Part shown: positions 25,841 to 27,212 of the stretch, piece after piece | How the letters are laid out: each line of letters opens with the position of its first letter | How positions within the stretch are numbered: the first letter of the stretch is position 1 | DNA from: Actinomycetota bacterium | Lineage (GTDB): Bacteria; Actinomycetota; Coriobacteriia; Anaerosomatales; UBA912 | NCBI GenBank assembly: GCA_018334075.1 | Contig: JAGXSC010000055.1 | Coordinates: 1 to 48,624, forward strand | Direction of reading: 5' to 3' | Length of the DNA stretch: 48,624 bases | Notes under the pieces: model-generated | Told to the model about the DNA's origin: nothing | Databases searched by the model: none | The model's input: the letters and a program-made list of their open reading frames with translations, nothing else | Translations under genes and position numbers: made by a program

Positions 25841-25868
25841 ATGACAAAGCTTTTCCTTGTGTTATACT
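25841..25868 (+). promoter_or_regulatory. Strong sigma-70 promoter upstream of the RlpA-like gene
   Basis: ATGACA (25841-25846) and TATACT (25863-25868) are 16 bp apart and each matches its consensus at five of six positions. The transcript would start near 25875, about 320 nt before the next start codon (26196), which implies a long untranslated leader. Confidence 0.65.
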
Positions 25869-26195
25869 ACGAAGCTGTTGATATAAGAGGTACCTTTAGC
25901 GCTTCGGCTGCCTAGACGATCGGAGCAGTCGTTCGAACCGGCGCAAAGGGTACGAAAAGCGAATCCGATTGGCTCGGTCTACGTCCGCACAAGCGGGCGC
26001 CCGTGTACTAGGAAAAACCAAGGTTCGTAGCCGAAAAGCATATTCGCTTCAGTTGGCTTGAAACGACGGCATCTGCCGCCGATTTCGCCGGATGCGGAGC
26101 AGCTTAACACCCCAAATTTTCACTGTCTCCCTGGCACTTTTGTGCCCCGGCCTGATGGCGTGCCGTCAGTAATGTACCCGGACCGGGAGGTCTAT
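25869..26195 (+). ncRNA. Long structured 5' leader, candidate regulatory RNA
   Basis: This 327-nt stretch has no credible gene but many long-range complementary arms. Stem A: GTACCTTTAGCGC (25890-25902) with GCGCAAAGGGTAC (25941-25953), 13 positions with one mismatch and one G-T pair. Stem B: AAGCGAAT (25957-25964) with ATTCGCTT (26042-26049), perfect, enclosing further stems such as CTACG/CGTAG and GTCCGC/GCGGGC. Then GGCAC/GTGCC (26133-26146), and CTGATGG (26152-26158) with CCGTCAG (26163-26169) shortly before the ribosome site. Actinobacterial RlpA and Rpf genes often carry c-di-AMP (ydaO) riboswitches, but I do not see the ydaO core, so no class is assigned. Confidence 0.55.
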
Positions 26196-26819
26196 GTGAG
26201 TTTGAGAAAAGTAATAAGTATCGCTTTGGTCACAGTGACGCTAGGAGGAGTCCTGGCGTCGGTATCAAGCATCATGCTCGGCTTTGATTATGCCGAGCCT
26301 TTCGCAATTGCTTCGCCTGCGATTCGACCCGAGGGCACGCTAGGGATTGCCGAGATATCGGTCGAGCCCACTGCTCACGCTCCGGCGTCTGAGAAGGTGG
26401 CCCGGACAGATGAAAGATCTGCCGCAATCGTGACCCCTGTGAAAAGGCGGGCGGTGCCGATTCCCGTGGCTCCACCCAAGCCTCGCGCAAGCACCTCGCC
26501 TTCCGCGCAGAGCGCCTCCTCGGCGCAGAACACAGGGGGCTGGCGTTCGGCAAGAGCCACCTGGTATGGCCCTGGCTTTTACGGTCGCAGGACAGCCAAC
26601 GGCACCGTGCTCACTAAAGACATGATGAACGTCGCTCACAGAACGCTGCCTTTTGGCACACGCATAGAATTCGAGTTTGAGGGCCGCAAGGCTGTAGCTG
26701 TTGTAAATGACCGCGGGCCGTTTACTCCTGGCAGAGTCTTCGATCTTGGCCCGGGCACCGCCAAGGCGCTTGGGTTTGGCGGAGTGCAGACTGTCAGGTA
26801 TCGCATCTTGGGCAGGTAG
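26196..26819 (+). CDS. Secreted RlpA-like double-psi beta-barrel protein
   Basis: 207 residues. The N-terminus is a signal peptide or membrane anchor (LRKVISIALVTVTLGGVLAS), then a low-complexity Pro/Ala/Ser linker of about 90 residues, then a C-terminal RlpA-like domain: ATWYGPGFYGRRTANGT, AHRTLPFGTRIEF and VVNDRGPFTPGRVFDLGPG. The domain is found in septal lytic transglycosylase RlpA and in Gram-positive wall hydrolases, so it probably cleaves or binds peptidoglycan outside the cell. The GTG at 26196 is chosen because GGGAGG sits 5 bp upstream and the signal peptide begins there. Confidence 0.87.
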   Translation: MSLRKVISIALVTVTLGGVLASVSSIMLGFDYAEPFAIASPAIRPEGTLGIAEISVEPTAHAPASEKVARTDERSAAIVTPVKRRAVPIPVAPPKPRASTSPSAQSASSAQNTGGWRSARATWYGPGFYGRRTANGTVLTKDMMNVAHRTLPFGTRIEFEFEGRKAVAVVNDRGPFTPGRVFDLGPGTAKALGFGGVQTVRYRILGR

Positions 26820-26873: not shown

Positions 26874-27212
26874 ATGTCTAGCCCCGCGCCCGATAATGGC
26901 TCGAACAAAAAACCGATCATGGATTTGGTCATCGAACTACTGGAAGCCCTCGTCGATTGGCTCCGCTATGAAGTCGAGACAATCGTTCGTGAGAAGGTGG
27001 TGCTTCCGCTTCAGCGGCTTGGGATCACTCTTTTTGCCGCATCGGCCGCGTCTTGCCTGGCGGCTCTAGGCGCGACAGCTATCGCCGTTGGGGCGTTCAT
27101 GCTTCTGGGTCAGGCGATAGGATACGCGTATGCGTTGCTTTTGATCGGTGCTGTGCTGCTGATAGGCTCTGTGGTGTTTCTGATCGTGAAGAAAAAGAAC
27201 ATGGTGAAATGA
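26874..27212 (+). CDS. Small two-helix membrane protein, holin-like
   Basis: 112 residues. After a polar N-terminus and an amphipathic helix, two membrane segments are seen, near residues 50-79 and 83-106, ending in KKKNMVK on the positive side. This resembles small membrane proteins grouped with the phage holin superfamily 3.6 (DUF1469-like), found in many non-phage contexts. I cannot assign a function. GGAGGTG precedes the ATG and the stop overlaps the next ATG by 4 bp, so the downstream protein may be its partner. Confidence 0.75.
   Translation: MSSPAPDNGSNKKPIMDLVIELLEALVDWLRYEVETIVREKVVLPLQRLGITLFAASAASCLAALGATAIAVGAFMLLGQAIGYAYALLLIGAVLLIGSVVFLIVKKKNMVK

Follow-up and report, generated by a model that had tools for sequence, protein, structure and literature searches.

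The window analysed here (the whole stretch of 48,624 nucleotides) comes from a 1.9-Mb assembly of an Actinomycetota bacterium (Coriobacteriia; Anaerosomatales; UBA912). On it, the genes pgk, tpiA, gpmI and secG (named from their translations, SecG also by Pfam) are followed by a long leader, by a gene for an RlpA-like protein, which is predicted to be secreted and whose start codon, GTG at 26196, lies after GGGAGG, and by a gene for a holin-X-like protein. The promoter that the earlier note had placed before the RlpA-like gene is present, and one sigma-70-like promoter was found upstream of the leader against 0.7 expected by chance; we infer that the transcript starts at approximately 25875. 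The distance from the -10 element to the start codon ranges from 312 to 424 nt in relatives (median 337), and no intrinsic terminator was found on the + strand from the leader up to the RlpA-like gene. The features of the locus are given below. Helices were tested on an alignment of 59 leaders by comparing each sequence's own arms with arms permuted among sequences, and the fractions are the permutations that did as well.

25841–25868, + strand: sigma-70-like promoter, ATGACA and TATACT separated by 16 nt; -10 conserved in most relatives (aligned leaders)
25875–26195, + strand: structured leader RNA, whole element, approximately 320 nt (59 relatives aligned)
25890–25953, + strand: P1, 25890–25902 with 25941–25953 (own arms 13.5 versus 12.5 for permuted arms; 1/2000)
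25905–25931, + strand: P2 hairpin, CGGCUGC 25905–25911 with GCAGUCG 25925–25931 (0/2000)
25917–25971, + strand: PK1 pseudoknot, P2 loop CGAUCGGA 25917–25924 with UCCGAUUG 25964–25971 (0/2000)
25934–26027, + strand: D helix, CGAACC 25934–25939 with GGUUCG 26022–26027 (100% paired; six double events)
26034–26042, + strand: core AAxAGCAUA, candidate binding-site nucleotides (90–100% conserved, family weighted)
26055–26089, + strand: P6, GGC 26055–26057 with GCC 26087–26089, plus GAAA 26060–26063 with UUUC 26083–26086 (0/2000)
26065–26167, + strand: P7, long-range helix from the core to the ribosome site, GACGGC 26065–26070 with GCCGUC 26162–26167 (0/1000)
26096–26104, + strand: 3' core (CGAG)RCAGCU, conserved in the aligned leaders
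26108–26131, + strand: C-rich, G-poor linker, possible Rho-loading region (base composition of relatives)
26133–26169, + strand: two local hairpins before the ribosome site (sequence; minimum-free-energy fold)
26145–26190, + strand: P8, masking of the SD, CCCGG 26146–26150 with CCGGG 26183–26187; SD GGGAGG 26185–26190 (0/2000)
26196–26819, + strand: RlpA-like double-psi beta-barrel lytic transglycosylase, 207 aa (PF03330, E 6e-14)
26874–27212, + strand: holin-X-like membrane protein, conserved downstream neighbour (PF07332, below its cut-off)

Of the 61 nearby genomes, 57 gave a match to the rlpA-like gene, some of these matches being other RlpA paralogues, and the same leader lies upstream of nearly all of the best matches; paralogues of the order with another architecture (e.g. 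in G005 and G013) are without it. Altogether, the leader was recovered from 59 genomes of the order, mostly uncultured actinobacteria, with one copy per genome. As RNAalifold yielded no pairs on the core alignment, the core was modelled from sequence only, and this model (R1) gave strong single-copy matches in about 57 genomes of the order. Under strict filters, R1 retrieved nothing convincing from about 327 genomes of the class outside this order or from a sample of the phylum, and the leader was not found in 33 further genomes with RlpA homologues; given these filters, and a 33-genome set without a positive control, a diverged form elsewhere could escape. Weaker R1 matches exist in other orders (E ≥ 5e-4), but the four inspected all lie in or beside coding sequence and are without the leader layout.

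Several relatives depart from the common arrangement. The leader of G012 (L142) is seemingly reduced to P7-type strands and the SD region before an rlpA gene, its 5' domain and the greater part of its core being gone, which is possibly a natural deletion. A fragment of a CWB2 gene (cell-wall-binding, PF04122, 65.7 bits) lies between secG and the leader in G001 (L082, 820–1500), where the 5' half of the leader and the promoter are also duplicated 615 nt upstream, ahead of that fragment; a similar CWB2 fragment was recognized, by eye only, between secG and the leader in UBA912 (L002, 2360–2600).

Covariation among the leaders of orthologous genes, which the earlier note had named as the check on its proposal, is strong in permutation, tree and shuffle tests. 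Indeed, the own arms of P2, P3, P6, PK1, D and P7 beat every permutation, and the 13-position stem described beforehand (P1) is present, with a counterpart that covaries in relatives. Double-sided changes affect all eight pairs of P2 and five of the eight pairs of PK1, of which 7–8 bp are retained in 26 of the 26 sequences tested, a set that leaves out the largest family (f12) and several others, in which the loop of P2 differs or is short. The D helix, which reads GGACC/GGUCC in most relatives, shows six compensatory changes on a tree for which the columns of P7 and D had been removed. The 5' domain (P1 and P2, with the loop held in PK1 by sequence after D) is tied to the core by D. A perfect 8-bp stem had also been proposed between 25957–25964 and 26042–26049; it exists in the sequence but is not conserved, 95 of 2000 permutations being as good, and G002 and G003, the closest relatives, do not have it. 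Such a stem would use the invariant core and adjoin the conserved pseudoknot arm.

The core AAxAGCAUA is near-invariant and unpaired, and P6 contains a variable inner hairpin. P7 links the core to a strand beside the SD in all families: in relatives, it comprises 8–9 bp between a core strand GRCGRCGG (inside P6) and CCGYCGYC located 5' of the SD, whereas in the window it is reduced to 6 bp and shifted in register. Its most variable pair is A–U in 24 and G–C in 33 of the 59 leaders, with two G–U and no mismatches, and approximately 19 compensatory events were counted over the whole helix, eight of them independent at that pair, on the tree without P7 and D columns. P7 draws on bases that also form the inner hairpin of P6, and the two are therefore alternatives. 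Two further candidate helices, P5 (AGC/GCU with CUCG/CGAG) and P9 (RCAGC/GCUGUC, with a downstream partner), are complementary in many species; their own arms are no better than shuffled ones, and they were set aside. After the core, the first 40 nt contain on average 48% C and 9% G in the 59 relatives.

The structure was also evaluated as a whole, on a separate MAFFT alignment of 25 leaders in which the pseudoknots were written out. In this four-helix model, 95.5% of cells are paired (versus 88.4 ± 0.6 in shuffles), with the proviso that arms chosen by eye from the same sequences favour pairing per se, although not the double-sided changes relative to shuffles. These changes were found in 58 cells (versus 15.8 ± 3.3 in shuffles) and in 19 pairs (versus 8.5), none of the 500 shuffles being as high on any measure, and pairing falls to 20–49% when the helix partners are slid by 1–3 columns. 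The folding energy of the window leader (z = -1.77; two of 100 shuffles as good) is not decisive alone; the comparative evidence is, and the leader at 25869–26195 is a real, conserved RNA.

Near the ribosome site, the two hairpins noticed earlier are present at 26133–26146 (GGCAC/GUGCC) and 26152–26169 (CUGAUGGC/GCCGUCAG), and relatives likewise have one or two local hairpins between the linker and the P7 strand. The second hairpin of the window competes with P7, the 3' strand of which fits both, and this suggests alternative states. A masking strand lies 5' of the P7 strand and reads CCUCCG or CCCGG, facing CGGAGG or CCGGG; in G026 and G017, the SD region has changed and the masking strand along with it. 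The possible on/off switch proposed at this place thus stands as far as the complement of CCCCGG to CCGGG at the ribosome site is concerned, and P8 is matched by no permutation, but its support is modest (own arms 15.7 versus permuted 14.8, s.d. 0.28).

Searched alone against Rfam 15, the window leader had no match, either at gathering thresholds or at E ≤ 10. The leaders of 20 relatives gave only two chance matches at E ≤ 10, both far sub-threshold, and six further loci gave none, so that the recommended cmscan against Rfam, RF00379 included, returned nothing credible for the window leader or the 20 relatives. Neither tmRNA nor tRNA was found in the leader. No description of it was found in papers that name RlpA together with a riboswitch (judged by title and abstract), RlpA together with ydaO, or OPB41 together with a riboswitch, a survey with motif-survey supplements and most subscription papers outside its scope.

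Wherever the flanks were read, the leader precedes a gene for a secreted wall-lytic protein, and this protein is of two kinds. A gene for a secreted SLT/lysozyme-like protein takes the place of rlpA after the leader in family f15 (G017, G026, G032) and in some members of f11 (G035, G038, G044, G047). PF01464 exceeds its cut-off for G035, G044 and G047, whereas the SLT-type proteins of f15, for which it is below cut-off, all have the pattern RES...GLFQ...WNT...WY. No homology was found between the RlpA-type and SLT-type enzymes by BLASTP. These genes have ordinary wall-lytic domains (PF03330, PF01464), the unusual part being the leader. As non-homologous RlpA and SLT genes carry the same leader, the RNA tracks the wall-lytic function. 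Moreover, the upstream neighbour differs: in the window it is SecG, whereas most other families have UPF0182 at this place, identified by Pfam in G019 and G017 and recognized by eye in the rest of the families read. The RNA thus goes with the enzyme, and a module emerges that consists of promoter, leader, wall-lytic enzyme and holin-like gene.

The holin-X-like protein (26874–27212 in the window) stays beside the wall-lytic gene even when SLT replaces RlpA, and the holin-like genes after both enzyme types are homologous (38% identity between the window protein and that of an SLT-type locus). It is possible that the holin-X-like protein and the wall-lytic enzyme are a functional pair.

The leader would be, in the reading that we prefer (probability approximately 0.62), a new orphan riboswitch-type cis regulator of a peptidoglycan-lytic gene, acting on translation and possibly also through Rho. 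The earlier suggestion that a cell-wall enzyme is here preceded by a cis-regulatory RNA of a new class fares well, given the lack of an Rfam match and the strong covariation, and we rate the element, from comparison of sequences, as a new structured leader class, orphan so far. Two general marks of riboswitches are found: a covarying 5' leader before a functionally coherent gene set, and a platform reaching the SD (the P7 strand 5' of it, and an anti-SD pairing that is modest). Comparative genomics has yielded other orphan riboswitch candidates (e.g. PMC2864571, PMC6429828), which likewise have a conserved, covarying 5' leader and a narrow gene function, and the present leader differs from them in being without a match in Rfam 15. 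Acting in cis as the 5' UTR of the peptidoglycan-lytic gene, it may bind a small signal molecule through its compact core (AAxAGCAUA, P6 and CAGCU). Binding would determine whether the GRCGRCGG strand is engaged in P7 or in the inner hairpin of P6, with consequences for access to the SD, which the strand upstream of it can hide by pairing (P8); in this way, synthesis of the wall-lytic enzyme would be switched at the level of translation. As an intrinsic terminator is absent and the linker is C-rich, Rho-dependent termination may contribute.

The known RNA closest in role is ydaO/yuaA (kimA; RF00379), which, as before C. glutamicum nlpC and S. coelicolor rpfA, is also long, pseudoknotted and placed before secreted wall-lytic genes of Actinomycetota. 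The genes that it controls in this phylum are almost all related to the cell wall, and the C. glutamicum nlpC switch is most likely translational (PMC9960051). That the leader could be a divergent c-di-AMP riboswitch of this class, overlooked by Rfam, draws on this shared gene class, on a DisA-type diadenylate cyclase encoded in 19 of 21 genomes of the order, and on a CAGCUA-like end, the sole string common to RF00379 sequences and leaders. However, the new leader is without sequence or covariance-model match and has another conserved core and another helix plan. RF00379 went undetected in 61 genomes of the order, whereas the same tool finds it in 38 of 198 phylum-sample genomes, and the ydaO blocks GGGGAACC, GGGGUGAAUC and CCGAACCCGUCAGCUAAC, which vary little among the RF00379 sequences compared, are absent from the leaders when compared by eye. 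The ydaO core, which the earlier note could not see, is thus matched neither by model nor by blocks; the leader is not a member of ydaO, lacking two of its defining features, and a divergent form is very improbable. Among the phylum-sample RF00379 matches listed, none belongs to the class of the window, although the order encodes DisA.

Other explanations dispense with a small-molecule aptamer. A protein-binding site, serving autoregulation or a global RNA-binding protein, would suit the large size, the conserved single-stranded core and the single copy per genome; we hold it rather unlikely, as the core stays the same whichever of two non-homologous enzymes follows, which argues against autoregulation by the encoded enzyme. 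Slightly more doubtful is a physical sensor (of temperature, Mg2+ or K+), or a leader acting mainly in Rho-dependent attenuation or mRNA stability: the C-rich, G-poor linker and the SD masking would fit, and pseudoknots often depend on Mg2+, but a near-invariant unpaired core exceeds the needs of a thermometer. A separate small RNA lying upstream by happenstance, to which its own promoter and compact pseudoknotted fold might point, is improbable, as no intrinsic terminator precedes rlpA and P7 joins the core to the SD-adjacent strand in all families. Finally, chance complementarity without functional structure, for which the folding energy alone leaves room, has next to no likelihood in view of the covariation of P7, D, PK1 and the four-helix model.

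For the riboswitch-type regulator that we favour, gene context yields little information on the ligand, as there is one leader-bearing gene per genome. The first candidate is c-di-AMP, since actinobacterial ydaO targets wall genes, the order encodes DisA and RF00379 was undetected in it; with DisA in 19 of 21 genomes, this ligand is likely to be available. By this argument from gene content, it is tentatively conceivable that a second, structurally unrelated c-di-AMP riboswitch class replaces ydaO in the order and controls RlpA or SLT transglycosylases by translational switching. In any case, leaders that are large, pseudoknotted and strongly covarying, and that have a conserved unpaired core, are seldom met and in most cases prove to sense something specific; here, the link is to peptidoglycan cleavage, through two unrelated enzymes, in a group where ydaO, the usual wall riboswitch of actinobacteria, is undetected. 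The identity of its ligand would reveal the signal that sets the level of a wall-cutting enzyme in this order, and would tell whether c-di-AMP control of wall lysis arose twice in RNA.
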